Assembly: GCA_023374045.1 (NCBI GenBank)
Contig: CM041778.1
Coordinates: forward strand, 365,278,831-365,342,830
Source of the DNA: Limonium bicolor
Taxonomy: Eukaryota; Streptophyta; Magnoliopsida; Caryophyllales; Plumbaginaceae
Length of the DNA: 64,000 nt
Direction of reading: 5' to 3'
Shown here: positions 14,234 to 64,000 of the stretch, one piece after another
How positions within the stretch are numbered: the first letter of the stretch is position 1
Layout: each line of letters starts with the position of its first letter
Made by a program: the position numbers and the translations under genes
The notes under the pieces: model-generated
The model's input: the letters and a program-made list of their open reading frames with translations, nothing else
What the model was told of the DNA's origin: nothing
Database searches by the model: none

Positions 14234-14238
14234 CAAGG

Positions 14239-32474: not shown

Positions 32475-32486
32475 GCTCTGATACCA
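32475..32486 (-). promoter_or_regulatory. Primer-binding site of element D (tRNA-Met)
   Basis: Minus strand TGGTATCAGAGC, five bases from the LTR end. Perfect match to the canonical site. Confidence 0.9.
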
Positions 32487-32491
32487 CTTTC

Positions 32492-35400
32492 TGTAACGCC
32501 CCTATTTCACATAAATGCAGCGGAAAATAAAATACTAAACGATTACAGATCATCGGGTTCCAAACACCCGACACCAAACCTCACCAATTACAACTTATAA
32601 AATTATAAATGTTACGGTATGAACTCGAGAAAACGTAACCTAAACATAATAATAAAATACAACTCTCCACAAATCCTAATCCCCAACCCCATCACTCATA
32701 CTCTTCGTGGCCACCTGTATAACAATACATACCTGCAAGATAAAACCAAGCAGCCCACCCCGAGAGGGTGAGTCAGTTCCCTGGAATGGAACTGGTACGA
32801 TCCTCCAAAACAAAACTTATAAACATAACTCTTTAACAAATAATGACTTGTAGACAAACACTTAAAACAACACAGAGGAACAAGGCACTTTAAAATCACC
32901 AAGTCAAGATAACAAGTTGAGAAAAGAGATAAATAACAGAAAGATAAGGTTAGTCATTTAAAAGAAATCACACCATAAGTTAGTGAACATCCCATGCTTA
33001 TGTTAGATTCAGTTCCAATTAGGAGTAGGAAGACCCAAGTAGTCACTAGGACTAGGAATGAAGAAAAGATCAAGAACCAGCAACTCAAGAATGAATAAAA
33101 CCAATTGGGAGAGATGGCCCCCACCGCAGTCACGTCCTTTTAGGACAGGGGATATACAGCCCCTCACTGTTTAACACGTCCTTTTAGGACAGGGGATATA
33201 CACCCCTCACTGTTACCAATGAAGACGCGCGCACGTCATAACCAACAAACTCAGCTCATGGATGAAACGATATCCAGAGTCAAAAGAATAATTTACCAAG
33301 ATTGACATTTCCCATATTCCCACTTGATTAATAACTACACAAGTGCAATACCAAAACACTCAGTCCTACAGAGTGCAGAGGCGTAAACCCTCAGCAGTTA
33401 ATATCTAATGAGACAACCAGATAAGGGGAACCAATGATCATGTGAGTTGTACATTCAAGGCCCAGTTAGTCACATCAAGCTGAGTTAGTCACACAAACAG
33501 CTTCCTTTTGAAATACATTCAAGCTCAATTAGTGTTTTTCAAAAACATCTCTTCAGTCTGTTAGCAAAAACATCTGAGTACGAGAAATCGTACCTGGTAT
33601 GTGTAGAAGCAGTAACCAAACTTGAAAGTGCGAACTTCCACTAATCACCTATAATTAAGGTGTTCCAAGTACTGATTAGTTAAGGAACTATAATGCTAAA
33701 CATCTTTCATTCTTACTAGTTTATAGTTTCTAGTTACAATTACTCTCTCTTAAGGATCTGGGCTAGATCTCGTTAATTAAATCTTCCATTAGACCCATTT
33801 CATTTAATCTGGAATGATTTAGGGTTTAACCCTGAGAGTGGCCCAAACTCTCTTTGAATTGATTAAGTGGGCTTTTGGGGTTTATGGACTGGGGCCCAAT
33901 AGGTTAGCCCAAGCCCGCGTTACGTTTCACTATTTAATTAAATTCCCTAAAAAGGATTTTGCTAGGTTTCGAACGTGCAACCTCGACTTAGTTCCAAGTT
34001 TATCTTGACCAACTATGCCATTGAATTTGTTTGTCTTAAGGATACGTTTAATTTTATTTCAATCACTTACTCTTAATCGTAAGGTTAGCTTAATTAAACT
34101 CCTAAGTTATCGTTGACTAATTTATTGCAAGACTGATTAAAGTCCTAAAGTTTAGTATATATATTCTTCTTATTATATTTCCCACAAGGAATGTTATTTC
34201 CTTTATCTATTTCTAATGTATTTATATATATACATATATATTTTAGGATTTATCCAAAACATTCTTTAAGAAATTTTATTGTATTTAATTATCTTTAATA
34301 ACTTTTACACATATCCACATCCGATATATGGTTTATAAAATAAAGTATATTCCTTAGTTTCATTTAAGTATATTAACCTCCACATTATATAGTTAGTATA
34401 AACATAGATTGATTAAATTCCTTGATTTAACATATTACTATTTTATTTCTTATATATATATATATATTTACTTCACTAAAAATTTTGTACTCAAAAATAT
34501 TTCTTAACATTCTATATTAAATCTTATTTTAGTATTATTTTATTATTCTCAACCTACAAAGTTTATTAATCATCTATACTTTAATTTTTGTTACATTCAA
34601 AACCATATATTATAATATATCTTAGGAAAAATTCAGAATTACAATTTTTAGACCTATTTCTTCTTGTCTAAAAAGCCCCAAATTTAATATATAGCAACTA
34701 TAATACTTTAGACATATTATAAAATTTTTATTTCATAAAAATATCTTTTAAATTATCTAAATAATTCCATAATTCTCAAAAATTACAAAAATTATAATTT
34801 ACGTTTAAAAACTCAAAACCCATATTAATTTACATCAAAATAAACTAGATTTTATAAGGAATCTATGGTTAAAGTTTTGTGTCAAAATACATTACGGAAG
34901 GCCACTAAATAAATTCAACAAGTTAGGGTTTAATTCTAGAATTTATATAACTTAATATATTAATAATTTCCCACGTTTTAATCTCGGCCGTCCGTTCCTT
35001 CTAACTACGATCGGACGGCCCAGATTCACCCAGTTCTTCAGAAACCCAATTCGAATGCCGATTGGGAATCTGTTGATTTCTCTCAATCTACAGAACCAAA
35101 TTCATTGATTTTTGTTTCATTGGATTTGAAATTTAATTTCGGTTCTAATGGTACCAATTTCGTTAGTTACCATGCAAGAATCAGGGATTTCGAGTCTGGA
35201 TAATTCGAGTTAGGGTTTATACCAGTTTTGAATTGATTTCGACAAATTCTCTCATTATAGTGTATAATTGGTCAAATTGATAGTTGGGTATGACCGATAA
35301 TGCAAAAACAAAGGTCAACATCAGAGTAATTTGGTCAGAAACATACCGGAGAGGCGCCAACGAGGAAAATCAAATTCATTTTTCTGGAAAACGATGATTT

Positions 35401-38708: not shown

Positions 38709-40892
38709 TGTAACACCCCACTTATCCTGGCTCTAATTTTTTTTTTGTGAACAATACAGAAGAAGACTTATAAAACTAGTGGGGGTACTACCACCACACC
38801 CACACTCACTGTGGATGCTAAGGCTTATTACCACCACTATACCAAATTAATCAAACTCTTAAACTTTATATATATATTCAAAATCTAACCACAATATTGA
38901 ACCACTTGTACTTCCAAAATTATCTTCTAAACTTTACAACCTTTACTTACTAATACCAACTAACAACTTCTTTCAAAACTAAATATCAACTTACACTTCC
39001 TTTAATAGTTTACAAAGTGTTTAAAGATACTACAACTGAACTTAATGGAAATAACTACGTCACCTTCTATCTTTTGACTCTAATCACCTCTAGTTCCACA
39101 CTTCTGTGTAACTTCACCTAGGGAGAAACACCATCTTTTCCTGTACCCGTGGTCAGTCATGCAATCACAGAGAAAAGCCCACATGGCACATGCCTGAAAA
39201 CAAATGTCAGCAAAGCTGAGTAATTCTTGCCACCACATGTAAAATACATTTAGCTTATCAAACTCTTTATGAAATCATATGTGACATCAAAAGAACCACA
39301 CCAACATATATCACAAAAAAAAACACAACAAATATTACCAAGGCACATTAGTATACATCCATATAACACTAAGAAACAACCATAATACAAAACACATTAG
39401 AACCTTGTTCATAACCTGTAAAATTCATTTAGTTTAAGAAAACACTTTGAAATAACATAATAACACACAAGTAATCAAACAAGTCAGAAACCATATAACC
39501 ACCTTACCAAAATACAAACCAAATACCAACCAAGACAATACCACCAAATTTTAGTCCATTTTAGTCCTTCCACCAATCCTCGGGCACACCGGTCTTTCAA
39601 CAAAGAGCACTAAGGCTCTCAGCCCCTTGGACAGTTATTTCCACCTCACCCTATGTCCTTAAGTGTGCACACCCCCTATAGATCATCAGCCTATAGAGTA
39701 GATCATGATGGCTTGCGCACAATTCATTGGTAGTGGGAAAAATCAGTGTCTGGCCTCTAAGGGCTCATAAAATTGTGTAACCAAATTCCAAAGTGAGTAC
39801 CAAGTGATTAAGCATTCCAACCAGGTCTTTAACCTTAATAAAACATCCACACAACATACCAGGAAGAATCAAACCACATAGCCACCATTAACCAACAAAA
39901 ATCAAGTTAGAACACATATTAAACACCTTGAAATACCTTAAAAACAACCGCTTGTTTAAGGTCTTACCTCTGTATAAATTTGACCCACCTTTTAACCAGT
40001 TTAATATCAACATCTTATGAGTATTTGTCACGAAACCAAAGAAAGAAACCTTCGAAAACATCTTCATAATTTGAATAGGGACCAGAAAGGTCTTAAATCA
40101 TGTTTTTAGGTCTTGTTTTACCTTTAACTCATAAAAACTCAACTGGAGAACTTACCCACGAATTGGAATATTGTAAAGGGATAAGTACTCATCATTTTTA
40201 GCTAAAAACCCACGGAAGTTATTCACGAAATCATACACCAAGTTGGCTTCAAGCTAGAGCACCAAATTCATAGAATCTGACATCAAAAGTTCAAGGTTTG
40301 TTCACCAAGTTTCCCAGAACTTCTCGGTGGTTATTATACATCAAAATCATCAGTGAAGAGTTTAATTTCACACCATGAAAATAGTTATAAGAGATACACA
40401 GCCTAAGCTTCCGAAAATAGCACAAACAGAAAGTGTCGACATAATTGACACATAGGGAAAGGATGGTGGAGCATGAGAACTACCTGACTCCTTCTTGCCA
40501 TCTCTCTTCTCCATGAGATAGGTACTTCAAATAGATAAATGTGGATACCAAGAACTCCTATAGACTCACTTGGGAAGACCTCCAAATCCTCTCACCTTTA
40601 CACAAATTCTACATTGAGAAGGAAATTGGCTTCTATTTTGGTGTTCTTGGGTGGCTGGCTTGCTTTACTTATAATTCATGTTTCTATGGGTTTAATGAGG
40701 TTGGAGAAGATGTGTGCTGTGTGTTGGAAGGCTTGGTCGTGGATCCTTTCTTATAGGCAGAAGAGGAGAAGTCTTAAAGCCAAGGAAAGGCTTATAAGAG
40801 TGACACCTAGCTTAACACCCATCCTTCTCTTATTAGCTATTGGTTTGGCTATGTTTAAACATGACACATAAGTAGAGACAAGGCTGGGGCAT

Positions 40893-43800
40893 TGAAATAC
40901 CCCGTAATAAAAATAGTGATTAATTAGGCTAATAAGTGATTTAGAAGCTTAATTATGTATAAATAATCATGAGAGAGCAAATCCCGAAGAAAACGGATCC
41001 TTAAAACGGATTAAAAACACTAATGAACCTTAAAGCATGTTTTTCGAGGGAACCGGGAAAACGTGACTTTAAGCGGGTCAAATAGACTCGTAACAATTTT
41101 GGTCTAAATAGTCATTAATAAACATTAGTGAAGATTTAGGACCAATAAAATCAATAAAATGAGAAAATAGTAAAAACTGCCAAAAACGGGAAGTTGTGGG
41201 GTAAAAGTGTAAATAAAAATAAACTAGTGTGTCCACTATTACAAATAAGATTTTAAAACCCCATGTGAGGTGTGTGTGTGTGTAGTCGGATGACTTAATA
41301 GCCCATGCCCCTCTCTTAATTCTCTTCTATGTACAAAAGACAAACAAAATAAAAAGCAAACCTCACTTTAGCACTCTCTCTCCTCTCTCACAAACAAACC
41401 CACGTACTGCACTCTCTCTTCTTCCTCTCTGGTTCCAACCATGGCGATTTGAGAACCCACATACAGAGCCCTCTTCTTCTTCATTTTTGAAACCTCAAAT
41501 CACCACCAAATGCTACAAAAATTATACCGTTGAATTCGTATCGCTTCGGAGAACATTTTACACCCTTCAAAAATCTAAAACCTCCAACTTTATTTTTGAG
41601 GGTATAATCGTTTAGAGCTTGAGGAGCACCATTTGGAAGACCCATCTTCTTCTCCATGTTCTAAGGTAAGAAAAGAACCAAAGCTCTTCTCTCTTCCATT
41701 TTTCATTGCAAAATCCAAAACTCACGTGAAACACCACTACTACATTACTCAGCCGGTTTTGGCATTTCAAAGAGGAGCTGAAGCATTGTCATTTTCCACT
41801 CAAAAACTCCATTTGAAACTCAAGGTAAGACTTATTAAGGGTTTTAGGTGGTTTCTCATAATCCAGGGTTTAATACGTGAGATAGAAAATTTACTAGTTT
41901 TGGTGTGTATGTGTGTGCCTTGTTACATGGTGTAGCTTGGCTTAAATAAATCAAGAAAACAAAGAAAGAAAGCGGAGCTGTAAGGAAGAAGAGGAGAAAA
42001 GGAAAAGAAACAAGAACCAAAGGTAATGGAAGCCTCTGTACAATTTTAATGTTTGTGTATGTATAAGTATATTGCTCTAGTAATGGTCTAAGCCACTGTA
42101 ACTGTAGGAAAGGAATGGAGTAGGTTAATGCTAATTGTATTTGTAGTTTGAAGCTTTTGAAAACAAGTAAATAAATTGTTAAGTGTGAGTAGTAAGTGTG
42201 CAGTAAGTGTTAGAAGTTTGTGTGAGAATAATGTATATGAGTACAGGTTGTGAATATATTGAGTGTGCAAAATTATGTGGTGAGAACACTTAGAAATGTA
42301 GGGAACCTCTGTCAAAATTTGGTTAGGAATGTAGAGACTTGTGAGCTGTTAGAAAAGAAAGAACAGAGAGGTTGTGCAGAGAAGAAAAATGAGATTGTTC
42401 ACTTTAGTTTGTAACAGGAAGAAATGATGTAGTTGAGTGGAGTTGTAAATGGTAAAACATGAGTTGTTTAACTAAGTTAGGTTAGTTGGAGAGTCATTTA
42501 GATAGTGGGAATAAGAAAAGAAAAATCTGTTACATTACTTGAAGAAGAAACTGCAACAGAGGGAAAAATTTTGCAGTAAAATATGTAAGATTGACAGATT
42601 GTTATAGAGATGTATTAGACTAGTTTAAAATGTTTAATCCATGTCAAAACATGTTAGATTATGTGTAGGAATATTAGGGAAGAGGTTAGTAAAAGTTTAG
42701 AGTTGAAACAAGTTCAAAAACATATATAAATTGCAAAACTGTAACTTGTCCGGGTTTGCAAACCAGTACACAAACCCGGGCCAGCATAAAAACTCGACAG
42801 AAAATTATACAAGAGGAGTGGTCCGGGTTTACAAACTAGGACACTAACCCGGACCACCCCCAAAACATACCCGTAACTTCATAAAACAAGTGGTCCGGGT
42901 TTGCAAAGGAGTACACAAACCCGGACCATACGAAAAATACACCCGTAACAATTACCAACAGGTGGTCCGGGTTTGTATAGTAGGGTATAAACCCGGACCA
43001 TGCAATTAGCTTACCCGAGGATTTCTTCACAGTGGTGGTCCGGGTATGTAAACCCGGACAACAACCCGGACCAACCCAAAATCCTTCCAGAATGTGTTTT
43101 AATGCTATTCTAAGGATGGTAAGGATGGGTAATGATATTATAAGATGATTAGGACATAATTAATGATGTATAAAGGTCATTAAGGCTATAAACAAGCTTA
43201 GAAAATAATTTAAGTAAGTAACCTAAGTACATGTATTTGAACAAGAAAGAATTAGTAAGTATAAACCAGGAGATGTTAGTAAAGTAATTAGTAAGGTTAA
43301 GTAAGGGTAATTAACCACCCAATTGTATGTATATGTTAGGACTTGGATTGTGAACACCGGAGGAACGTCGGATACACGTACAATGGTGAACGGTATGAAC
43401 TTCTCATGCCCCGTATGCTACCTTGGTTACTCTGATTTGTGTGTTGTGTGCTAATTGACCACCAAATAAGATAAATGCACGAATCGGAATTATTATGCTT
43501 ACTTGTGAATACATGATGTTGTTCCTTGTTGCATATCTTTTTAAATCATAGTTTGTAAAATTCATGAAATGTATGGATGGATATGAGTGTGTGTATGCTT
43601 GATGTATTGTATTGTGACCGAATGTTATTGTGATTGGACTTCTAACTGATTCTTAACAAGCTAACCAATCTAACTTAAATTGGTAATTAAATTGGAATGA
43701 GTAGAAGTCCGATATAGTTTCGGCAACACGTGAGGATGCGGAATCACAAGAGGTTGGCTCCAATTCCTGACTCTTTAACTGGTCCACGGCCCAAACCCCT

Positions 43801-44722
43801 TAAATGGGTAGCATCCTGGATTGGTGAGTCAAGTAAATCCCGGTGGTGGGACGGAGTAGTCCCCGGGCCGGAGGTCATACCGACTTAACATGAGTAAAGT
43901 AATTAAGTAAGAATGAGTAAACAAGTATGGTAAAGTAAGTAAGTAAAGCAAGAGTAAGTAATGTGTAATGAGTAAAAGAGTAAATAGCATTCCGATTAAC
44001 CCGGATGCATAATTTGGCTAACCCTTGTGAAGGTAAGTATTGTGTGCACTATTGTATTGTTGCTTGGGATTGTGTACTGTATTAAGCATGATTGTATGAT
44101 GTATGTAAAGCATGTATGTATGAAATTAATGAACCACATGTACAGTCAACCTTAAATAGTCAGCATACCCTAGTTAGCACGCGCTATATGCGAAGTTTAT
44201 GCGCTGCTTTTGTTGAGCCCCTTGGGGCGATGTTTTTACTACATGCAGGTCCCCGAGATGGGTGAAGATGATGAAGAGATTTAGTTTGATTTCTTTTTGT
44301 CTGTAAACAATGAACTGTGAATGGTGTACTAAGTAGTACACGGCTGTAGGTTTTTGTTAGCCGGTGTACCATGGGGTACACCCTTTTGGATAATGAAAGG
44401 ATGGAGAATTGGTGTAGATGAGTAGCTTGTAGATACTCATTGTTTTTGGGAGATTGAGAAGGGATGTAATTAAATACTTTAAATACTCGGTAATCCAGTA
44501 ATGTAAGCATATGGTATTTGTAATTAGTAAGCAATATTTTAGTATCTCGGTATCTTCTAGTCATCAGACCGTAACTGTAGGTAGTGTAAGCCCTGCTAGC
44601 CGTATGGGCGGTTAGCGGCGTTGTATCACCCGCCGTAGTAGTAGCAGTATTTCCGCTGCGACGTAGTAGGATTATCAGGACGATTATACGGTAAGCATAG
44701 GATTAACGGTTGGGGTGTTACA
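40893..44722 (+). repeat. 5' LTR of element B
   Basis: Direct repeat of 51306-55132. Contains an oligo-pyrimidine leader-like region (41370-41480), the hairpin array 42748-43072, AGTAAGTA microsatellite-like stretches near 43250 and 43880-43990, and a palindromic GTACACGGC/GGTGTACC region near 44330-44385. Confidence 0.95.
42748..43072. repeat. Five-hairpin array in the element B LTR
   Basis: Five successive inverted repeats with arms like GGTCCGGGTTTG and CAAACCCGGACC, at about 42748-42782, 42818-42857, 42891-42928, 42963-43000 and 43034-43072, spaced 70-75 bp. Each has an 8-15 base loop, with ACCCGTAA-type spacers between. Arms keep pairing while loops vary. Confidence 0.92.
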
Positions 44723-44727
44723 AAAAA

Positions 44728-44740
44728 TGGTATCAGAGCG
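44728..44740 (+). promoter_or_regulatory. Primer-binding site of element B (tRNA-Met)
   Basis: TGGTATCAGAGCG follows the LTR end and five A residues. Perfect to the canonical plant site. Confidence 0.92.
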
Positions 44741-45613
44741 TAGTTACGCTCCGATGACCTAATTACCGAGCATAGGGATTACCGAGTTAGGATTTCATCC
44801 GTCTAAAGACGGATATGTAGAAACCTAACTAAAAACTACCGTTGTTAACAACGGATACCCTTGACGTCCGTATGGACGATACCTTGCTTAAATTCTAAGA
44901 CCCCTAGGTCATATCTTGCAAAGCCTAATGTAAATGCTAAATGTTCAGATGTCAGGACGAGGCCGAGGCCGAGCAAGAGGCGAAGCCTCTGAAGGACCGG
45001 GCACGCAGACGATAGCTGAGATCGTCGCCGCCACGGTAGCGCAGATGCTACCGCAAATAATCACTGCTATGCAACAAACACAACAAAACCAACAAACTCA
45101 AATGGGGCCAATCCCGCCCCCTCCACCCAGAGAAGTAAACTGGGTAAAAGCTATCGCAGATCTCCGACCTCCATGCTTTAGAGGCGAGAGTGACCCTGCT
45201 AAGCTTGAAGCCTACATCTCCGAAATGGAGACTACATTTGAGACTCTCGAATGTCCTACTGGAGTTCGAGTGAGATTAGCCGCCTACTACCTTAAGGATG
45301 CAGCCATGGATTGGTGGAAAATAATCAAGAACGACCATGCTGATGACCCCACCTTTGACTGGGAATCCTTCACAGCCCTCCTCCGATCCAAATACTTCTC
45401 TGAGCATGTTAAAACAAGAAAAAGGGTAGAGCTTGATGCTTTGAGGATGACAGAGAAGATGTCTGTCGACGAGTACTACCGCACCTTCACCTCTCTTCTA
45501 CGTCTACTACCCGACCTTGGGTACACCGGCCAGGTGTTGGTCGATCGCTTATATGGCGGTCTAATCCATCGCTTTCGGTATGGTATGGGCTACACTAGAT
45601 TTACCTCCTTCAG

Positions 45614-45707
45614 GTAAATATCGGTTTAACCCTTAGTACCATTGTAAATCCTTAAACCTATTCATTATCTTTTAACTAAGAATCTTGGCTAATACCTGGA
45701 ACTTCAG
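45614..45707 (+). other. Predicted gag intron 1 of element B (94 bp)
   Basis: CCTTCAG|GTAAATA ... GGAACTTCAG|GAGTG. AT-rich, with stops in all frames. Its position corresponds to D 31493-31560. Confidence 0.65.
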
Positions 45708-45985
45708 GAGTGTTATCACGCGGCATCTCACGTTGAGATCACTTGCCAATTGAGGGATGAAGAAACCGCGCTTAAGCGCAAGGCCAACAAAAAAACACAA
45801 GTGCTGAGGAGCAGAACCAAGGGAAAAGTTGGAAAAAGAAGAAAGGGAAATTCTTTCAGCAAACCCAAAAGAATTTCCCAAGTGAGAGCAGTGCCCATGC
45901 TGATAAGGCAAACCAGTTGAGCTTCTTCAACTTGGTTCTTCTGCACCGGTGGCTGCGAAGCCACTGAGATCACACCCACCTAAGG

Positions 45986-46068
45986 GTAAACTTCTAAATT
46001 AAATTCGTAATTGTATAAGTATCATATCTAGTATATCCGCACAAATGTGCTAACACTCTAAACCTTAG
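45986..46068 (+). other. Predicted gag intron 2 of element B (83 bp)
   Basis: CCTAAGG|GTAAACTT ... AACCTTAG|GTTCTGG, phase 1, with exon ends matching those around D 31213-31281. Confidence 0.65.
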
Positions 46069-46412
46069 GTTCTGGCTCCGGTTTCACTAAGAACTACTCC
46101 GAAGCCGCGCATATGTGTGTAGGAAGTGCAACCAAGACCATCCCAACCTAGATTGCCAAGGGAGAGAAATCCGGTGCTACAACTGTCAGAAGCCCGGACA
46201 CCGAGCCAACTTTTGCCCCGAAAATGCCAAACCAAGAGGAAACTTCTAGAGCTTTAAGCAGAGGGAAGGCAAGGAGGTTGCATCTGGCGATGCACCGGCC
46301 CAGCAGGTGCCACAGGGACAGGGATCCCGAGGTCCTCAGAAGGGCGCACCCCAGAGGCATCCTGCCTTGCACATCATTGACCGTGACGGGTCCGGTTCTA
46401 AGTCCGGCCCAG

Positions 46413-47442
46413 GTAATTAATCTAAACCTTGAATCCTGTGAAGCATGACTAAGTATTGAAGTAATTGGTTGAGTGAATGCATGAGCAAATGAATAGAAGT
46501 GTGTAGTCTGCATGAAATGAAGCAGTTGAAACTAGTACTCACCGTAGATGAAATTTATAACCATAGGAAGCTTTAGTATCTGCTTCCGATACCGTTGAAA
46601 CCAAGTCAAGAAGAGACTGACATCACCAATCACTACTACACCAACGAGCAGTGTCAGGTCATCCGACCAGGTATGATTTTATTAAAGGAATACCTGACAC
46701 CTGAAGCCCAAATTTCAATCATACGACGATGCAACGAACTAGGAACGGGTCCAGGAGGATTTTATACACCCGAATTCCCCGGTGGAGCGAAGATGAAGCT
46801 GAAGATGATGTGCTTGGGAAAGGACTGGAATCCTTATTCCAAGACATACCAAGAGACACGAATGCAAGATGGAGCGATGCCACCGACGATACCTCAGAAT
46901 TTCAGACACTTGTGGCACAATCAGTAGAACTTGCACGACAATGCGAATGTGATCCGATCCCCGCACTCGAAGCGGTCCTCTGTATCGTCAACTTCTATGA
47001 GAAAGAAGGACTTGGGTTACACCAAGACAAGGACGAGACAGCGGAATCTCTTGAACAAGGAGTGCCCGTAGTGTCTTGGTCCATTGGTGATGATGCCGTA
47101 TTTATGTATAGTGAGCAGAAGCGTGTGGACCTCACACAGAAACTGGTATTGAGATCAGGAGATGTCCTAATCATGGGTGGAAAATCTAGGATGCTGTATC
47201 ACGGGATCAACAAGATCAAGTTGAATACGGCACCGCTGGCAATAATCAATGCCACACACATGAAACCAGGACGCCTGAACCTTACCTTTAGGAAGTATTA
47301 AATTCATAGTATCATGTAATGTACTAGTAACGTGTATTAGAGACACGGTATGTATGATGGTTGGTTCATCAATAAAGAGCAGTGTTGATTTAAATTCCAC
47401 TTGTGTCCACCATCAATACTTATGAAATTGTGACTTCAATAG
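46413..47442 (+). other. Predicted 1030-bp intron of element B enclosing the AlkB ORF
   Basis: Donor GGCCCAG|GTAATT (46412/46413), acceptor TTCAATAG|GTTGTGG (47442/47443). The gag frame ends on codon position 1 at 46412, and the pol frame needs positions 2-3 at 47443-47444, so removal fuses gag to protease-pol in frame. Other acceptors, CCATAG and GCTTTAG (near 46566 and 46576), lie just before the AlkB frame. An AATAAA at about 47371 sits after the AlkB stop. Confidence 0.6.
46577..47301 (+). pseudogene. AlkB-like 2-oxoglutarate/Fe(II) dioxygenase of element B
   Basis: The frame opens after an acceptor-like CTTTAG. Motifs in order: VIRPGMILLKEYLTPEAQ, GGFYTPEFPGGAKMKLKMMC, ALEAVLCIVNFYEKEGLG, LHQDKDE (HxD iron ligands, about 47020-47040), GVPVVSWSIGDDAVF, LRSGDVLIMGGKSRMLYHGI (third ligand His) and GRLNLTFRKY (RxNxxxR, 2-oxoglutarate binding), stop at 47299-47301. 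About 240 residues, close to the usual AlkB core. It resembles bacterial AlkB and the plant ALKBH1-type proteins more than the ALKBH9/10 m6A erasers (from family knowledge). One single-base shift near 46885-46895 breaks it. There is no membrane segment or obvious targeting signal. Predicted role: oxidative demethylation of base lesions or marks in element RNA or cDNA. Confidence 0.92.
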
Positions 47443-48104
47443 GTTGTGGACTCGGTACCAAAGGTAACCTGAGTATCCTCACCGAAGCACAAGTCGGCAA
47501 AAGCGGCACCATCTTAACGGGAACCTTCCCAGTGAACGGCATGGAAGCCTCAGTGTTATTCGACTCCGGCGCCTCTCACACCTTCGTATCACCATCTTTT
47601 GTGAAGAGGTTAAAGCTAGATGTGGATGAGCTACCTAATTTCCTGGTTAGTCTCCCATCGAAGGAGCGAATACGGTGTACTAATTACTACAAGTCAGCCA
47701 CAATCGAAATCAAAGGCGAATCGTTTCCCATCTCCTTCATCGAGTTTAATGGGTTGGGATTCGATGTAATAATCGGAATGAATTGGTTGGAGCGGCACAA
47801 GGATAGAATCCTTTGCGTCGAGCATCAATTACTTCTCAAGAGTCCTTCTGGGGTTACTGTATCTTACCGCCAGAGACCGAGAGAGCCTTCGACCACGGTC
47901 ATTTCCGCTATGGCTATGTACCGGGAGCTCAAAAAGGGCCATGAAGTGTATTTATGTTATGTGCAAGACCTGGAGAGAGATCCAGAGTTCAATCCTGAAG
48001 TACCCATTGTATCTGAATTCCCTGACGTATTCCCTAAGGAGCTACTCGGCATGCCACCTCGACGAGCAGTAGAGTTTGAGATTGAACCTTTTGCCAGGTA
48101 CTAG
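47443..48104 (+). pseudogene. Element B protease
   Basis: NLSILTEAQVGKSGTILTG leads into SVLFDSGASHTFVS (catalytic D-S-G-A, about 47552-47590) and FDVIIGMNWLERH (second conserved motif), the gypsy retropepsin. The C-terminal FPDVFPKELLGMPP begins the RT connection. A one-base shift near 48090 separates it from RT. The protease part itself is open. Confidence 0.88.
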
Positions 48105-49411
48105 TCCCATTGCTAGGGCACCGTACCGCATGGCACCTACTGAAATGAAAGAACTAAAAGAACTAAAAGAGCAATTGCGTGACCTACTTAACAAAGGGTT
48201 TATACGCCCGAGCGTATCACCCTGGGGAGCACCGGTTCTCTTTGTGAAGAAGAAGGACGGTAGCTTCCGACTTTGTATTGACTACCGCGAATTGAATACG
48301 GTCACAGTCAAGAATAAATACCCATTGCCACGTATCGACGACCTATTTGACCAGCTGAAAGGAGCCTCAGTCTTCTCCAAGATCAACCTCCGTTCTGGGT
48401 ATCATCAGATTGCTATCAGAGAGCAAGACATCGAGAAAACGACATTCCGCACCAGATATGGCCACTACGAATTCACAGTCATGCCATTCGGTTTGTCAAA
48501 CGCACCGGCAAAGTTCATGGACCTAATGAATCGACTATTCAGTGAGCAACTAGACACTTCAGTTGTTATATTCATTGATGACATCCTTGTGCATTCCAAA
48601 TCAGCAGAAGAGCATGAAATCCATTTGATGAAAGTACTTGAGACACTGCGCGAGAACCAGCTGTATGCGAAGTTCTCCAAATGCGAGTTCTGGCTAGATC
48701 AGGTATCATTCCTCGGTCATGTCATCTCGAGCGCAGGTATCTCAGTTGACCCTTCAAAGATTGAAGCTGTACGATCATGGCCTAGACCCAAGATGGTTAC
48801 CGACATTAGGAGCTTTCTTGGTCTAGCCGGTTACTACCAGAGATTTGTAAAGGACTTCTCGAAAGTTGCTAAGCCCATGACTACACTGATGAAGAAAGAT
48901 GCACCGTTTGTATGGACAGACGCGTGCGAAGTATCATTTCAGAGCCTAAAAGACTCATTGACCTCAGCGCCCATCCTTACTCTTCCAGAGGGCACAGAGG
49001 GATTTGAGGTATATTGTGATGCATCAGGAAAAGGAATGGGATGTGTACTCATGCAGCATGGCAAGGTTGTAGCTTATGCCTCCCGCCAGTGAAAAGCATG
49101 AGAGAGAATTACCCGACACACGACTTAGAGCTAGGAGCCATTTCTTCTCTTTGAAGATATGGCGACACTATCTCTATAGGGTAAGCATCACCATCTACTC
49201 CGACCACAAGAGCTTACAGTATGTATATACACAGAAAGAATTGAATTTGAGACAGAGAAGGTGGATGGAGTTCCTCTCAGACTACGACATCAACCTGCAG
49301 TATAAGGAAGGGAAGACAAACGTGGTAGCCGACGCCCTGAGCCGTCGAGCACACTCACTCCATTCGCTACTCGCTTCTTCTAGCTTGGTTGACGAGGTGC
49401 GAGACGCTTAG
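48076..49411 (+). pseudogene. Element B reverse transcriptase and RNase H
   Basis: Full gypsy [85 protein letters not shown] (catalytic D-D, 48571-48600), [16 protein letters not shown]. RNase H begins [15 protein letters not shown] (near 49013) and ends [10 protein letters not shown] (near 49325). RT is open. A shift near 49090 interrupts RNase H, and a TAG at 49409-49411 ends the frame just before integrase. Confidence 0.93.
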
Positions 49412-50830
49412 TTGAGCGACCCTTACTTAACCGAAATCAGACAGAAGATCACAGATGGTACATTCGAAAAGAAGAAGTATGATTTCAAGTTGCATGAAGA
49501 TGGTTTGATTCGGCTGAATGGCAGACTATGCGTCCCTCGAAGCAATGCTGAGCTAAGGGATCGCATCCTGCGAGAGTCACACAGTTCCACATTGTCAGTC
49601 CATCCAGGAGCCTCCAAGATGTACAAAGACATGAAGAGGTACTTCTGGTGGTCTAGGATGAAGTCAGATGTGACGGAGTATGTATTGAGATGCTTGACAT
49701 GCCAGAAAGTGAAATTCGAACATCGTAGACCGGGCGGAATGGTACAATCGATGCCAGTTCTGGAGTGGAAATTTCACGATATCTCCATGGATTTTGTTGT
49801 AGGACTCCCACCTGCCAGGGGAGGACTCAACATGATCTGGGTTGTAGTCGATCACCTTACCAAGGTTGCCAGATTCATACCGATGAAGGACACCTGGAAG
49901 GTAGTGAAGCTTGCAGAGCTTTTCGACAAGGAGATTATCAGACATCACGGAGTCCCAAAAACCATAGTATCTGACCGCAACACCAGATTTCTTTCAAGAT
50001 ACTGGAGAGCTACATGGGAAGCGCTGGGTACAGAATTGAAACTGAGTACTGCCTTCCAACCTTAGACCGACAGTCAGACAGAAAGAACCATCCAAACACT
50101 GGAGGACATGCTTCGGGCATGTGCCTTAGACTTTCAGGGGAGTTGGTTAGACAAGCTTCATCTTATCGAGTTTTCGTACAATAATAGCTATCATGCTTCG
50201 ATTAAGATGTCGCCTTTCCAAGCCGTATACGGTAGACCTTGCCGTACACCTTTGTGTTGGGATGAGTCAAGTGAAGCGGTCATCATAGGACCGGAGTATT
50301 TAGAACAAGTCCAAGCGGAAGTGCAACAAATCCGAGCCAATATGAAGGCAGCCCAAGATAGACAGAAATCCTATGCAGATGTGAGATGACGCGACCTTGA
50401 GTTCGCCGTGGGCGACCAAGTGTTCTTGCGCGTTTCACCTATGAAGGGCGTATTCCGTTTTGGTCAGAAGGGCAAGCTGAGCCCAAAGTTTGTAGGGCCG
50501 TACACTATCACCGAGAGAGTTGGATCCGTAGCCTATAGGTTAGCTTTACCTGAGGACTTGGGACGTGTCCATGATGTTTTTCATGTGTCACAACTCAAGA
50601 AGTATATCGCCGATCCTTCTCATGTCCTAGAGCCCGAAAGACTATCCATTGAGCCGACTATGAGATATGTTGAAACCCTGGTGAGAATCCTTGATAGGAA
50701 GACCAGAGACACTCACCATAAGTCTATACGAATGGTGAAGGTCCTATGGTCAAACCATGATGTCAAAGAAGCGACATGGGAGTTGGAAGATGCCATGAAG
50801 GTGAAGTACCAACAGTTATTCATAGACTAG
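49412..50830 (+). pseudogene. Element B integrase with chromodomain-like C-terminus
   Basis: Zn-binding HSSTLSVHPGASKMYKDM...CLTCQKVKFEH, core MDFVVGLPPARGG (Asp), TIVSDRNTRFLSRYW (Asp), [13 protein letters not shown] (Glu), YNNSYHASIKMSPFQAVYG, then GPYTITERVG, VFHVSQLKKYIADPSHVL and VLWSNHDVKEATWELED. The last is the chromodomain-type segment of Tekay/Del-like elements. TAG at 50063-50065 (relatives have Gln) and TGA at 50387-50389 interrupt it. The stop at 50828-50830 looks natural. Confidence 0.92.
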
Positions 50831-51305
50831 ATAGTCTAGTATGTAGTACATATGGGTACGGGGCGTACCCCTTTTAAGGGGGGTAGAGCCTTTTTGCTTT
50901 TGCATTGCTTCGGGGTGAGCATTGCATAATGTGTAGGTATTGTAGTATATTTTGATGGCACATGTAGTGCGGAATGTATTTGGTAGTGTATTTGGTATGT
51001 GTGTGTATGTATGTGTAATGTGTAGTGTATGGATGTGTATGTATAATGTATGGTGTATTGGTGTAATGTGTATTGTGAATTGCAGTGATGTATTGTGTAT
51101 GGTGTGATGGTATGTATGGAAATGGTGCATTGTATGTGAATTCGTATGATGCTTGAATTGTGTACGCTTGTAGTGTGAAAGGAAGTAAACACCTCATTGG
51201 TGGTAGAAAGACACATTATGGCAATTGGTTTGCCTAATGAGTAGAATAAGTAAACTATTAACCCTTGAGCAACTTTGAGGGCAAAGTTTCTTAAGGGGGG
51301 TAGAT
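50831..51305 (+). other. Element B 3' internal region with two polypurine tracts
   Basis: A polypurine-like CTTTTAAGGGGGGTAG lies at 50871-50886 just after pol. The functional tract TTCTTAAGGGGGGTAGAT (51288-51305) abuts the 3' LTR. Between them is a TG/TA-rich stretch (50930-51140) of GTGTATGT-like variants with no coding signal. Confidence 0.8.
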
Positions 51306-54300
51306 TGAAATACCCCGTAATTAAAAATAGTGATTAATTAGGCTAATAAGTGATTTAGAAGCTTAATTATGTATAAATAATCATGAGGGAGCAAATCCCG
51401 AAGAAAACGGATCCTTAAAACGGATTAAAAACACTAATGAACCTTAAAGCACGTTTTTCGAGGGAACCGGGAAAACGTGACTTTAAGCGGGTCAAATAGA
51501 CTCGTAACAATTTTGGTCAACTAAATAGTCATTAATAAACATTAGTGAAGGTTTAGGACCAATAAAATCAATAAAATGAGAAAATAGTAAAAACTGTCAA
51601 AAACGGGAAGTTGTGGGGTAAAAGTGTAAATAAAAATAAACTAGTGTGTCCACTATTACAAATAAGATTTTAAAGCCCCATGTGAGGTGTATGTGTGTAG
51701 CCGGCTGACTTAATAGCCCATGCCCCTCTCTTAATTCTCTTCTATGTACAAAAGACAAACAAAATGAAAAGGAAACCTCACTTTAGCACTCTCTCTCCTC
51801 TCTCACAAACAAACCCACGTACTGCACTCTCTTTTCTTCCTCTCTGGTTCCAACCATGGCGATTTGAGAACCCACATACAGAGCCCTCTTCTTCTTCATT
51901 TTTGAAACCTCAAATCACCACCAAATGCTACAAAAAATTATACCGTTGAATTCGTATCGCTTCGGAGAACATTTTACACCCTTCAAAAATCTAAAACCTC
52001 CAACTTTATTTTTGAGTGTATAATCGTTTAGAGCTTGAGGAGCACCATTTGGAAGACCCATCTTCTTCTCCATGTTCTAAGGTAATAAAAGAACCAAAGC
52101 TCTTCTCTCTTCCATTTTTCCTTGCAAAATCCAAAACTCACGTGAAACACCACTACTACATTACTCAGCCGGTTTTGGCATTTCAAAGAGGAGCTGAAGC
52201 ATTGTCATTTTCCACTCAAAAACTCCATTAGAAACTCAAGGTAAGACTTCTTAAGGGTTTTAGGTGGTTTCTCATAATCTAGGGTTTAATACGTGAGATA
52301 GAAAATTTACTAGTTTTGGTGTGTATGTGTGTGCCTTGTTACATGGAGTAGCATGGCTTAAATAAATCAAGAAAACAAAGAAAGAAAGAGGAGCTGTAAG
52401 GAAGAAGAGGAGAAAAGGAAAAGAAACAAGAACCAAAGGTAATGGAAGCCTCTGTACAATTTTAATGTTTGTGTATGTATAAGTATATTGCTCTAGTAAT
52501 GGTCTAAGCCACTGTAACCGTAGGAAAGGAATGGAGTAGGTTAATGCTAATTGTATTTGTAGTTTGAAGCTTTTGAAAACAAGTAAATAAATTGTTAAGT
52601 GTGTGCAGTAAGTGTTAGAAGTTTGTGTGAGAATAACGTATATGAGTACAGGTTGTGAATATATTGAGTGTGCAAAATTATGTGGTGAGAACACTTAGAA
52701 ATGTAGGGAACCTCTGTCAAAATTTGGTTAGGAATGTAGAGACTTGTGAGCTGTTAGAAAAGAAAGAACAGAGACGTTGTGTAGAGAAGAAAAATGAGAT
52801 TGTTCACTTTAGTTTGTAACATGAAGAAAAGATGTAGTTGAGTGGAGTTGTAAATGGTAAAACATGAGTTGTTTTACTAAGTTAGGTTAGTTGGAGAGTC
52901 ATTTAGCTAGTGGGAATAAGAAAAGAAAAATTGGTTACATTAGTTGAAGAAGAAACTGCAACAGAGGGAAAATTTTAGCAGTAAAATATGTAAGATTGAC
53001 AGATTGTTATAGAGATGTATTAGACTAGTTTAAAATTTTTAATCCATGTTAAAACATGTTTGATTATGTGTAAGAATATTAGGGAAGAGGTTAGTAAAAG
53101 TTTAGAGTTGAAACAAGTTCAAAAACATATATAAATTGCAAAACTGTAACTAGTCCGGGTTTGCAAACCAGTACACAAACCCGGACCAGCATAAAAACTC
53201 GACAGAAAATTATACAAGAGGAGTGGTCCGGGTTTACAAACTAGGACACTAACCCGGACCACCCCAAAAACATACCCGTAACTTCATAAAACAAGTGGTC
53301 CGGGTTTGCAAAGGAGTACACAAACCCGGACCATACGAAAAATACACCCGTAACAATTACCAACAGGTGGTCCGGGTTTGTATAGTAGGGTATAAACCCG
53401 GACCATGCAATTAGCTTACCCGAGGATTTCTTCACAGTGGTGGTTCGGGTATGTAAACCCGGATAATAACCCGGACCAACCCAAAATCCTTCCAGAATGT
53501 GTTTTAATGCTATTCTAAGGATGGGTAAGGATGGGTAATGATATTATAAGATGATTAGGACATAATTAATGATGTATAAAGGTCATTAAGGCTATAAACT
53601 AGCTTAGAAAATAATTTTAAGTAAGTAACCTAAGTACATGTATTTGAACAAGATTGAATTAGTAAGTATAAACCAGGAGATGTTAGTAAAGTAATTAGTA
53701 AGGTTAAGTAAGGGTAATTAACCACCCAATTGTATGTATATGTTAGGACTTGGATTGTGAACACCGGAGGAATGTCGGATACAAGTACAACAGTGAACGG
53801 TATGAACTTCTAATGCCCCGTATGCTACCTTGGTTACTCTGATTTGTGTGTTGTGTGCAAATTGACCACCAAATAAGATAAGTGCATGAATCGGAATTAT
53901 TATGCTTACTTGTGAATACATGATGTTGTTCCTTGTTGCATATCTTCTTTAAATCATAGTTTGTATAATTCATGAAATGTATGGATGGATATGAGTGTGT
54001 GTATGCTTGATGTATTGTATTGTGACCGAATGTTATTGTGATTGGACTTCTAACTGATTCCTAACAAGCTAACCAATCTAACTTAAATTGGTAATTAAAT
54101 TGGAATGAGTAGAAGTCCGATATAGTTTCGGCCACGCGTGAGGATGGGAGTCACAAGAGGTTGGCTCCAATTCCTGACTCTTTAACTGGTCCACGGCCCA
54201 AACCCCTTAAATGGGTAGCATCCTAGATTGGTGAGTCAAGTAAATCCCGGTGGTGGGACGGAGTAGTCCCCGGGCCGGAGGTCATACCGACTTAACATGA

Positions 54301-55132
54301 GTAAAGTAAGTAAGTAAGAATGAGTAAACAAGTATGGTAAAGTAATTAAGTAAAGCAAGAGTAAGTAATGTGTAATGAGTAAAAGAGTAAATAGCATTCT
54401 GATTAACCCGGATGCATAATTTGGCTAACCCTTGTGAAGGTAAGTATTGTGTGCACTATTGTATTGTTGCTTGGGATTGTGTACTGTATTGAGCATGATT
54501 GTATGATGTATGTAAAGCATGTATGTATAAAATTAATGAACCGCATGTACAGTCGACCTTAAATAGTCGGCGTACCCTAGTTAGCACCCGGTATATGCGA
54601 AGTTTATGTGCAGCTTTTGCTGAGCCCCTTGGGGCGATGTTTTTACTACATGCAGGTCCCCGAGACGAGTGAAGATGATGAAGAGATTTAGTTTGATTTC
54701 TTTTTGTCTGTAAACAATGAACTGTGAATGGTGTACTAAGTAGTACACAGCTGTAGGTTTTTGTTAGCCGGTGTACCATGGGATACACCCTTTTGGATAA
54801 TGAAAGGATGGAGAATTGGTATAGATGAGTAGCTTGTAGAAACTCACTGTTTTTGGGAGATTGAGAAGGGATTTAATTAAATACTTTAAATACTCGGTAA
54901 TCCAGTAATGTAAGCATATGGTATTTGTAATTAGTAAGCAATATTTTAGTAGCTCGGTATCTTCTGGTCATCAGACCGTAACTATAGGTAGTGTAAGCCT
55001 TGCTAGCCGTATGGGCGGTTAGCGGCGTTGTATCACATGCCGTAGTAGTAGTAGTAGTATTTCCGCTGCGACGTAGTAGGATTATCAGGACGATTAGACG
55101 GTAAGCATAGGATTAACGGTTGGGGTGTTACA
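51306..55132 (+). repeat. 3' LTR of element B
   Basis: Direct repeat of 40893-44722 with few substitutions and small indels, for example near 41275/51688 and 42190/52595. Followed by TSD GGCAT. Confidence 0.95.
53153..53478. repeat. Five-hairpin array, 3' LTR copy of element B
   Basis: Same five inverted repeats as 42748-43072. Substitutions such as GTTCGGG for GTCCGGG near 53443 weaken one stem. Confidence 0.9.
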
Positions 55133-55578
55133 GGCATGGTCATCCAACGGAGGAGCCTTCATGGGCTGAAAACTAATGATAATATGTAATAAATGACATT
55201 AATGTTTAATTAAGGTGTTTTAAGAGCAAATAAGGAACATGTTGTTTTACTTTGACTTAAAATCTAGCTAATGACCTTGTGACACCTCCTACTAGCTTGT
55301 TTCACCTCCATACTTGCTTGCTAGCTTGTGTGGAAAACTTTTAACCAATCATTTCGTGACACCTCGTGCTTAGGTTATCTAGATTTCCACCTCATGCTTC
55401 CTACTTACTAGGTCGTCACCTCGTGCTTACCTCAACTAGGTCACCACCTCATGCTTACTAAGCTGCTTAAGGTGTTTCCTAAGGATAAAAGTGATTATGA
55501 TGGAGTAAAACTAGCTACGGAGGCATTTTTGACTACTAGAATCTTACCGGGTCTTGTAGAGTTTTCTAAGGCTTTTCA

Positions 55579-55751: not shown

Positions 55752-56760
55752 ATGCCGCCACGAAGAGCTCTGGTTACTCCCCAGGGTGATGTCACTGAAG
55801 TGGTCCAGCAGTTCATGACCCAGCTGCTGCAGACGGTTGTAGCTGGCGAAGCCCCTAGAGGAGGACCAGTTGGAGGAGCCGCTGGTGGTGCAGCTGGAGC
55901 TGTTGAGGCGGGAGGCCGGAAATGTGAAGGCGCTTCAGGAGTTTATGAAGTTGAAGCCTCCGTCGTTCGATGGGGCAGGAGACCCCTAGGAGGCCAGTCA
56001 TTGGTTGACTGAGGTAGAGGATCTACTTCGGGTCATGGGCTCCGAGGAGGAGCAGAAGGTCGACTTTGCCACCTTCCTATTTAAGGCCGAGGCTAAGGAG
56101 TGGTGGATATCTGTGATGGGGAGGTCCCCACAGCCTTGGACGTGGGACCAGTTTACCGGGAGTTCAATAAGCAGTTCTACCCCGACATCAATAAGGACCA
56201 GCACATCCTGGAGTATAATCGACTTCGCCAAGGCCGGGACACGAGTGTGGAGGAGTACGTCAGAAAGTTTATCAGCCTGTCGAAGTTTGCACCTGAGCCT
56301 GATGAGCATAGGAAGGCTAGGAAGTTCGAGAGCGGTCTGAGGCCGGACATTCGCTCCGCTGTGACGCCCCTGCGTCACAAGACCTTCAGGGACGTTGCTG
56401 ATGTCGCCCTGTTGGTGGAGGCTGATCTGAGAGGCCGTCAGTCTGGTGGAAGGACCAGAAGAGGAAGCAGAGGGCTGATGAGAGCGATAGGAGGGATCAA
56501 TCTACTTCTCAGAAGAAGCAGCCTACTGGAGACCGAACTGGGGACCGTCAGGGTTCGAGGGACAGAGGTGGTCCGTCTTCTTCTTTGTCCATTCTGAAGT
56601 GTCAGGTGTGTGGCAAGTTTCATCGGGGTCGGGACTGCTTCAAGAAGTTCAGAGCTTGCTTCAAGTGTGGGTCCTTGGAGCATAGGATAGCTGATTATCC
56701 TTAGGCCGAGAGGAGTAGAGGTAGCTTTGGAGGTAGGACCGGAGGGTCTATTTCCGAGTC
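55752..56760 (+). pseudogene. Element C gag
   Basis: MPPRRALVTPQGDVTEVV starts a Tekay-type Gag: KPPSFDGAGDP near 55962, FKAEAKEWWISVMG, REFNKQFYPDINKDQHILEY, DTSVEEYVRKFISLSKFAPE and RKFESGLRPDIRSAV. It ends in a zinc-knuckle region with CQVCGKFHRGRDC and CFKCGSLEHRIADY, where the last Cys is Tyr. TAG stops at 55987 and 56702, frameshifts near 55900, 56150 and 56450. Confidence 0.87.
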
Positions 56761-56779
56761 TAGAGATCGAGACCGGGCT

Positions 56780-57510
56780 TAGCAGAAGAAGCCCTAGGAC
56801 CAGGCCAGAGTGTACGCGATGGCTGGAAGGAGGACCGATCCACTGACAGAGTTGTCACAGGTATTCTCCAGCTATCCTCCCGTTCTGTTTTCTGTTTGTT
56901 TGACTCTGGAGCCACCCACTCTTTTATTTCTGCTGAGTTGGTGGGTGAGCTCGGTTTGCCTGTGGTGCCCTTGGGTATTGAGCTGTGTGTGCATAGTCCA
57001 TTAGTTAAAGATTCTACTATGCTTCTGAAATCTGTTTGTAAGGATAGTCCTGTGTTAGCCAGAGATAGGACTCTGTATGCTAACCTCATCTCTATGGAGA
57101 TGACAAATTTTGATATGATTTTGGGTATGGATTGGCTTGCTGCCCACCATGCCCATATTGATTGTGCCGCTTCGAGGGTTACTTTTGAGGAGCTGGGTCT
57201 GCCCCGTCTGACTGTAGCAGGGAATGGAATCTCATGCTCACCACCAGTCATTTCAGCCATGCAGGCGTTTTGCTATCTGAGGAAAGGATGCCAAGGACTC
57301 CTGTGCTACATCCCTGAGGTTCGCAAGGATGCAAATTTGGAGGATATCCCAATGGTCAGAGACTTCCCTGACGTGTTTCAGGACGATGTGCCTGGGCTTC
57401 CCCCTATCAGAGAGGTGGAGTTCTCGATCGAGCTCGCACCTGAGACTCAGCTGATTTCTAAGGCCCCATACCGGATGGCGCCTGCTGAGCTTAAGGAGCT
57501 GAAGATCTAG
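56780..57510 (+). pseudogene. Element C protease
   Basis: LFDSGATHSFISAELV (catalytic D-S-G-A near 56899) and FDMILGMDWLAAH near 57110, then GLPPIREVEFSIELAPE linking to RT. TAG codons at 56780 and 56795 lie just upstream; a TAG at 57508-57510 splits it from RT where element B has Gln. A shift near 56890 is likely. Confidence 0.88.
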
Positions 57511-58838
57511 TTGCAGGAGCTGTTGGATAAGGGCTTTATTCGCCCTAGTGTGTCACCTTGGGGAGCGCCCGTCTTGTTTGTTATGAAAATTGATGGTAGT
57601 ATGCGTTTATGCATTGACTATAGGGAGCTCAATAAGGTTACCATTAAGAATAGGTATCCTCTCCCACGCATAGATGAGTTGTTTGACCAGTTAGCAGGAG
57701 CTAAAGTGTTTTTGAAAATCGATCTGAGGTCGGGTTATCATCAACTGAGGATTAAGGCAGACAACGTGCCTAAGTCCGCCTTCAAGACTCGCTATGGACA
57801 TTACGAGTTCCTAGTGATGCCATTCGGTCTGACGAATGTGCCTTCTATATTTATGGACATGATGAACCGGGTCTTTAAGCCGTTTTTGGACCAGTTCGTC
57901 GTGGTGTTTATTGATGACATCTTGGTGTATTCCAAGAGTGCTGAGGAGCACGAGGAGCATCTGAGGACCATTCTCCAGACTCTGAGGGAGAAGGAGCTGT
58001 ACGCGAAGCTGAAGAAGTGTGAGTTCTGGTTAGACCAGGTGGTATTCTTGGGGCATGTGGTCTCCAAGGATGGTATCTCGTGGACCCGGAGAAGGTTAGA
58101 GCTATTACTGAGTAGGCCAGGCCTACTAATGTCGGTGAGATTCGTAGCTTCCTTGGACTAGCGGGCTACTATCATAAGTTTGTGGAGGGCTTCTCCAAGT
58201 TAGTGATTCCGTTGACCCGTCTGCTACATAAGGAGGTGAGGTTTGAGTGGAGCGAGGCCTGTGAGCAGTGATTCCAGGAGTTGAAGAAGAGGTTGACGTT
58301 TGCGCCGATTCTGACTCTTCCAAAGGGGACCGAGGGTCTAGAGGTGTTATGTGATGCATCCCATAAGGGACTTGGTTGTGTTCTGATGCAGCATGGGAAG
58401 GTAGTAGCGTATGGCTCCCATCAGCTTAAGCCATATGAGAAGAACTATCCGACCCACAACCTGAAGTTAGCTGTCGTGGTGTTTGCTTTGAAGATTTGGA
58501 GGTACTACCTCTATGGAGCTTCGTGCAAAGTATATACAGACCACAAAAGCCTCAAGTACTTGTTCGCTCAGAAGGAGTTGAACTTGAGGTAGAGGAGGTG
58601 GCTGGAGTTGTTACACGATTATGATTTGGAGATCCTCTACCATCCTGGTAGAGCGAATGTGGTTGCTGATGCGCTCAGTATGAGGGGTCCGTCTGGAGCT
58701 GTTTGTGCTTGTCTAGTGTGCAGAGGTCTGCTCTCGAGTTACAGCGTATGGATATCTGGGTCGTGCCCAGAGAGGTCTGGGATGTTGGCAGCGTTACAAA
58801 TTCAGCCTACCTTGATCGACTGGATCAAGGCCAGTTAG
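57511..58838 (+). pseudogene. Element C reverse transcriptase and RNase H
   Basis: [67 protein letters not shown] (catalytic D-D, 57907-57936) and [16 protein letters not shown]. RNase H from [18 protein letters not shown] (near 58348) to NVVADALS (near 58655). Frameshift near 58095, TGA at 58269-58271, TAG at 58590-58592 (Gln in B and D) and TAG at 58836-58838. Confidence 0.9.
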
Positions 58839-63367: not shown

Positions 63368-64000
63368 TGTAACACCCCACTTTTCCTGGCTCTAATTTTT
63401 TTTTGTTTTTTGTGAACAATACAGCGGAAGACTTACAAAACTAGTCGGGGTGCTACCGCCACACCCACACTCACTGTGGATGCTAAGGCTTATTACCACC
63501 ACTATACCAAATTAATCAAACTCTTAAACTTTATATATATTCAAAATCTAACCACAATATGAACCACTTGTACTTCCAAAATTATCTTCTAAACTTTACA
63601 ACCTTTACTTACTAATACCAACTAACAACTTCTTTCAAAACTAAATATCAACTTACACTTCCTTAACTTACACTTCCTTTACTAGTTTACAAAGTGTTTA
63701 AAGATACTACAACTCAACTTAATGGAACTAAATATCAACTTCTTTTGTCTCTAATCACCTCTAGTTCCACACTTCTGTGTAACTTCATGACTAGGGAGAA
63801 ACACCATATTTTCCTGTACCTGTGGTCAGTCATGCAATCACAGAGAAAAGACCACAGGGCACATGCCAGAAAACAAATGTCAGCAAAGCTGAGTAATTCT
63901 TGCCACCACATGTAAAATACATTTAGCTTATAAAACTCTTTACTAAATCATATGTGACATCAAAAGAACCACACCAACATATATCACCAAAAAAAACACA
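63368..64000 (-). repeat. 5' LTR (element orientation) of element A, cut by the window edge
   Basis: TGTAACACCCCACTTTTCC onward matches 38709-39310 with few differences, including the CACTGTGGATGCTAAGGC block. Small differences include an extra CTTAACTTACACTTC near 63663. Continues past 64000. Confidence 0.92.

Follow-up and report, generated by a model that had tools for sequence, protein, structure and literature searches.

We analysed a stretch of 64,000 nucleotides from Limonium bicolor (contig CM041778.1 of assembly GCA_023374045.1, positions 365,278,831 to 365,342,830), hereafter the window, in which a Ty3/gypsy long terminal repeat (LTR) retrotransposon, element B, carries an AlkB-family domain. 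We found that element B spans 40893-55132 (14.2 kb) on the plus strand and has all the features of its class, namely LTRs, a target-site duplication (TSD), a primer-binding site (PBS), a polypurine tract (PPT) and the order gag, protease (PR), reverse transcriptase (RT), RNase H (RH), integrase (INT). In full, its domain order is gag, zinc knuckles, AlkB, protease, RT, RNase H, integrase, SH3 and a weak chromodomain match, and this order of Pfam domains bears out an earlier sequence-only reading of the same DNA, which had placed AlkB between gag and protease of a Ty3/gypsy element with a TSD; the duplication, GGCAT, is likewise found on both flanks. The features of element B are as follows.

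40888-40892, no strand: left TSD, GGCAT (sequence)
40893-44722, plus: 5' LTR (TG...CA), 97.0% identical to the 3' LTR over 3843 aligned columns
44728-44739, plus: PBS TGGTATCAGAGC (sequence)
44934-45613, plus: gag capsid exon (Retrotrans_gag 9.1e-17), predicted donor at 45614
45708-45985, plus: predicted gag linker exon, frames damaged (sequence and splice-site scoring)
46069-46412, plus: predicted zinc-knuckle exon, followed by the last gag donor, 46413 (motif by eye; frame, phase)
46567-47301, plus: AlkB exon with its own stop, the domain split over two frames (PF13532; acceptor, phase)
47443-48104, plus: protease, predicted start at acceptor 47443 (RVP_2 3.2e-29; phase)
48073-50830, plus: RT, RNase H, integrase, SH3 and weak chromodomain match, stops present (RVT_1, RT_RNaseH, Integrase_H2C2, SH3_Tf2-1, Chromo)
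51293-51300, plus: PPT ahead of the 3' LTR (sequence)
51306-55132, plus: 3' LTR (LTR alignment); LTRs of about 3.83 kb
55133-55137, no strand: right TSD, GGCAT (sequence)

The zinc knuckles of element B were seen by eye, the Pfam scan giving no zinc-knuckle match there, and the Chromo match (PF00385, E 0.0002, 21.7 bits) lies below its cut-off of 25.1. We take the PBS to be of the initiator-Met type.

The AlkB-family domain in element B is confirmed. In the hidden Markov model search that the sequence-only reading had proposed as a check, PF13532 (2OG-FeII_Oxy_2) matches 46577-46927 (E 8.6e-08, 33.1 bits) and 46705-47301 (E 9.7e-32, 111.2 bits), with both frame pieces above the curated cut-off of 31.2 bits. 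The motifs LHQDKDE, YHGI and RLNLTFR are present exactly as that reading gave them. It had also taken 46577-47301 for one open reading frame (ORF), which needs correction, as the reading frame shifts within the domain, near 46.9 kb. With this frame change and several stops in pol, the element B copy cannot make the full protein; dioxygenase function of the element AlkB is predicted from sequence.

A diverged copy and the signature of selection

A tblastn search of the whole window returned one other AlkB, on the minus strand at 30706-29998, plus a 14-residue match at E 0.58. This second AlkB lies in another element of the same kind, element A, and a further gypsy element, C, served as a control.

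36491-26022, minus: element A, with LTR, gag, zinc knuckle, AlkB, protease, and RT onward
36491-32492, minus: 5' LTR of element A (repeat comparison), PBS next in order
32217-30890, minus: gag region and zinc knuckle of element A, predicted introns 31560-31493 and 31281-31213 (Retrotrans_gag 0.001, 19.7 bits, below cut-off)
30706-29998, minus: AlkB exon of element A, with its own stop, interrupted by two in-frame stops and one frame change (tblastn; phase)
29901-29199, minus: protease of element A, one extra predicted intron 29826-29753 (RVP_2 2.6e-26)
29091-26274, minus: RT to integrase and C-terminal region of element A (ORFs; alignment to B)
56097-59420, plus: element C, gypsy, control without AlkB (domain scan)

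AlkB sits at the same point in the gene order of both elements, its exon is about 236 codons long in A and about 245 in B, and all eight cofactor positions (iron ligands HxD...H, N/Y, and RxNxxxR for 2-oxoglutarate) are kept in both copies. The RTs of the two elements are 78.1% and 80.7% identical (two pieces), and along their alignment AlkB mostly shows greater similarity than gag. The LTR pair of element A matches in three pieces at 82-92% identity, which suggests that A is the older of the two. The RT of element C is 67.6-72.9% identical to that of B, depending on the query sequence, and C gives no tblastn match to AlkB, its zinc knuckle running straight to the protease. Being present in A and B and absent from C, AlkB belongs to the A/B lineage and is not a single insertion; the sequence-only reading had named a host-gene fragment found only here as what would undo its claim, and the diverged element A, with AlkB at the same position, speaks against that. 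This lineage may belong to the Tekay/Del clade of chromoviruses.

We also compared substitutions between A and B, leaving out codons with a stop in either copy. Across 186 codons of AlkB, the proportions of synonymous (pS) and nonsynonymous (pN) differences are 0.76 and 0.28, giving a pN/pS of 0.36 (bootstrap 95% 0.29-0.46), compared with 0.40 (0.32-0.49) over 174 codons of the protease and 0.21 (0.18-0.25) over 527 codons of RT-RH-INT; as the synonymous sites are saturated, these ratios are bounds and not rates. AlkB was under constraint similar to that on the element's own protease, and this ratio, together with the diverged copy in A, argues that AlkB was retained under selection and is no stray host fragment.

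Three further observations concern element A and its surroundings. The extra phase-1 intron predicted in A (29753-29826, minus) is absent in B, through gain in A or loss in B, possibly by way of a spliced RNA copied back. Beyond the 3' LTR of A (20492-26022) we find a second partial copy of the family, with PBS and gag start, in which 21341-23511 matches 31604-33785 at 92.8%. An inverted LTR piece (20492-21349) follows this partial copy, in a recombinant or nested arrangement.

Kinship and class of the element AlkB

When the AlkB piece of element B was used as query, six proteins (P0001-P0006) stood out with 149-195 bits (59-67% identity), and none of the remaining 88 of 94 matches exceeded 141 bits. 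In a profile search, among the 120 matches listed of 1034, the same six, which were themselves included in the query profile, scored 272-377 bits, P0177 of Artemisia 308 and the others at most 264. All eight cofactor residues are kept in P0001-P0004, while P0005 ends before one of them and P0006 before three. A, B and P0001-P0006 form one clade in a 51-row tree (support 99/99), and the six element-type rows retained in a 39-row tree again form one clade (100/100); the smaller tree leaves out 12 of the 51 rows, namely two element-type, Ginkgo, four algal and five labelled bacterial, among which P0022 groups with plants in the larger tree and is likely mislabelled. Membership of this clade suggests that P0001-P0006 also reside in elements, the element context itself being seen in A and B.

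The sister group of the element clade varies, being the sampled seed plants in the 51-row tree (89/91) and Silene, then Medicago, in the 39-row tree (81/82, 80/90). Approximately unbiased (AU) tests rejected none of three placements (with eudicots, p = 0.287; with monocots, p = 0.398; seed-plant hosts apart, p = 0.387). A capture predating the seed plants, at which the 51-row tree hints, was therefore not retained, as the hint is lost once long or short rows are omitted and the AU tests reject no alternative. The named relatives nearest to the element AlkB are host plant ALKBH1 genes (ALKBH1C/ALKBH1D), and the donor was a land-plant ALKBH1-type gene.

Sequence and fold agree on the class, which is plant ALKBH1 and not ALKBH5. 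A search of PDB sequences with the piece from B returned rice ALKBH1 (5xeg, E 5.7e-36), E. coli AlkB (1.6e-15) and then mammalian ALKBH1, with ALKBH5 absent among the 21 sequences at E up to 1. The structure model of the relative P0003 (mean predicted local distance difference test score, pLDDT, 88.3) has its best match in OsALKBH1 (template-modelling score, TM, 0.91 by target; 50-51% identity), compared with TM 0.81-0.90 for E. coli AlkB and 0.58-0.60 by target for ALKBH5. Relatives in IMG/VR were found at three loci, at 32-35% identity.

Two candidates were set aside. A short loop considered as a mark of the element clade has 27 residues in all eight element-type rows, but 26-28 in many others of the 272 aligned proteins. 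P0136 of Cinnamomum, considered as a Gag-AlkB fusion of the A/B lineage, has an AlkB that pairs with the Persea host ALKBH1 (100/100) and keeps the host N-terminal part. As an observation in its own right, this protein (Cinnamomum micranthum, 584 aa) combines Retrotrans_gag (139-202) with a host-type ALKBH1 (366-582), either as a gene-model fusion or as a second meeting of gag and ALKBH1. Separately, the host protein P0095 of Smallanthus sonchifolius (786 aa) has four consecutive AlkB stretches.

Predicted exon layout and competing explanations

Splice sites and phases suggest that AlkB is an alternative last exon inside a gag-pol intron, predicted to give either Gag-AlkB or Gag-Pol. We observe that gag is interrupted at corresponding places in A and B. 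The last gag donor is the top-scoring donor of its interval in B (46413) and the fifth-scoring in A (30889), and in each it leaves one base of a codon. At the junctions of both elements, phase 1 is common to this donor and the two acceptors. The protease acceptor (B 47443, A 29901) continues the donor phase, with predicted junctions SGSKSGP-G-CGLGTKGNLSILTEAQ in B and SDDPSSS-G-FGNSEIRLTVLNQAQ in A. The AlkB acceptor (B 46567; A 30706, the top-scoring acceptor of A) continues it as well, giving the predicted junction A-FDIYFP in A, which resembles the host FDIC stretch, and G-SFSIC in B, where the frame is broken thereafter. In both elements the AlkB stop precedes the protease acceptor, and downstream of that stop lies AATAAA (B) or AATAAG (A), which may be chance. 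Of the 7 donors that we propose, 6 rank within the 12 best of their own element, and of the 9 acceptors, 7 rank within the 14 best, these sites having been chosen by eye first and then scored with textbook weights.

We propose that a plant-type Ty3/gypsy lineage carries a selected ALKBH1-type AlkB between gag and protease, as a predicted last exon on Gag that would ride in the particle and likely demethylate element RNA or cDNA. By this mechanism, the single gag donor at the end of the zinc-knuckle exon would join either the AlkB exon, with its own stop, or the protease exon, so that one transcript could yield Gag-AlkB or Gag-Pol by acceptor choice, and the unspliced RNA would serve as genome. 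Gag would carry AlkB into the virus-like particle, where the enzyme may strip harmful methyl groups from the packaged RNA or its cDNA, the probable target being methylated adenine or cytosine in element RNA, or 6-methyladenine (6mA) in DNA. An orchid precedent lends this some support by analogy: Phalaenopsis Gypsy elements (Gypsy_Pa_2799) are reported to carry an ALKBH5-like AlkB ORF (2-oxoglutarate-dependent dioxygenase, 2-ODD) with N6-methyladenine (m6A) demethylase activity in vitro (PMC9289625, 2022).

Several points weigh against this proposal. Both AlkB copies are broken, and the agreement in phase is partly selected, since the splice sites were picked by eye before scoring. Stronger donors lie within the AlkB exon of A (30292, 30466) and stronger acceptors within that of B, and the top lists lack one of the three donors of B and two of the nine acceptors. 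Moreover, the frame of B breaks soon past the AlkB acceptor, and the first gag intron of B is not frame-keeping, whereas that of A is. Finally, in a length-padded search none of 82 annotated proteins joined an ALKBH1-type element AlkB to gag or pol, the lone gag match being the host-type P0136. As the splice sites were chosen before scoring, we consider the proposal about evenly balanced. Its fuller form, in which a gypsy lineage built a demethylase into its particle through an ALKBH1-type exon in the gag-pol intron, Gag-AlkB would clean the genome before reverse transcription, and the capture would be convergent with the orchid case, we regard as slightly less likely than not.

AlkB may instead be made as a separate, unfused protein, from an internal promoter, a retained intron or an internal start, and act in trans, the mode suggested for ORF2 of the orchid element. 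The AlkB stop present in both elements and the separate ORF2 described for the orchid element (PMC9289625) favour such a product, but gag and AlkB join in matching phase in A and where the B exon begins, and we regard it as unlikely. The enzyme could mainly target host nucleic acid, such as m6A in host RNA or 6mA in the genome around insertion sites, and so weaken silencing; its nearest solved relative, OsALKBH1, is reported to be a DNA 6mA eraser (PMC8118384), yet a Gag fusion, if real, points to the particle, which leaves this a rather improbable use. That the captured plant gene is a passenger without benefit would accord with the two broken copies in the window, but a pN/pS of 0.36 with an upper 95% bound of 0.46 and the kept cofactor residues make it very doubtful. 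Lastly, a host gene or fragment unrelated to the element might be suggested by the nearest named relatives, which are host ALKBH1 genes, and by P0136, in which a gag fragment is united with a host ALKBH1. We give this reading almost no credence and reject it: AlkB is enclosed by the LTRs and TSD of B and oriented like the element, element A has it at the corresponding position, the two copies cluster together, separate from the sampled hosts, and the substitutions between them bear a signature of selection.

Other repeats and comparison with known systems

Elsewhere in the window, a further gypsy element (9612-12221, minus) has gag and protease ORFs and is flanked by direct repeats, 6488-8247 and 12468-14235 (94.0% identity), which are likely its LTRs. 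An integrase-like piece at 5477-6112 (plus), with an SH3_retrovirus match, is copia-like by eye. Another direct repeat (38709-39327 and 63368-64000), 91.6% identical and truncated where the window ends, may represent the LTRs of a larger element enclosing B and C. An Rfam scan of the window found no family at gathering score.

The sequence-only reading had regarded AlkB as unheard of in LTR elements, a claim that the orchid report overturns. In that report, no other consensus among the 121 angiosperm genomes surveyed was found to have an AlkB domain (PMC9289625), and in open-licence literature on AlkB, ALKBH or 2-oxoglutarate (2OG) and retrotransposons we found, among the matches listed, no other primary report of AlkB in an LTR element. 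The orchid elements share with A and B a plant Ty3/gypsy LTR structure, an AlkB domain and kept cofactor residues. The orchid element, however, has Tat/Ogre affinity by its RT tree, a tRNA-Arg PBS, dual RNase H and a length of 25 kb (PMC9289625), whereas element B is 14.2 kb long, with a TGGTATCAGAGC PBS and a C-terminal SH3 and weak chromodomain match; these C-terminal domains and the PBS indicate that the A/B lineage is not of the Ogre kind. Furthermore, in the orchid element a single ORF encodes gag-pol and a separate ORF2 encodes AlkB, which is ALKBH5-like (a comparison by published description), whereas AlkB is ALKBH1-like in A and B and lies between gag and protease. The A/B lineage is therefore a second AlkB case, separate from the orchid lineage in AlkB class, place and layout.

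Among cellular proteins, plant ALKBH1C/ALKBH1D and rice OsALKBH1 (5xeg, 5xoi) are the closest named sequence relatives and the best fold match, but they are cellular genes outside the element clade. OsALKBH1 is described as active on single-stranded DNA, with possible action on RNA (PMC8118384). Regarding layout, splicing yields different Gag or Pol products in Ogre (PMC6317226) and BARE (PMC3735527), the latter producing a spliced RNA for Gag; an enzyme exon within an intron is not described for either in the accessible parts of these reports, and in A and B the splicing is a prediction. In the case of ONSEN, the host ALKBH9B is reported to remove m6A from the element RNA, thereby freeing it (PMC12786077). 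Plant RNA viruses of the Closteroviridae and Betaflexiviridae, likewise mobile RNA-based agents with their own AlkB, possess such domains (PMC9289625), but viral folds match far more weakly (the best match in BFVD has 21% identity and TM 0.59 by query).

Overall, a single orchid capture could be a curiosity, whereas a second one, of another class and layout and selected while synonymous sites became saturated, suggests that plant retrotransposons repeatedly meet a barrier in the methyl marks on their RNA or cDNA. The A/B layout predicts a testable device, an enzyme exon within a gag-pol intron and, if true, would together with the orchid case make AlkB capture convergent in plant LTR elements.
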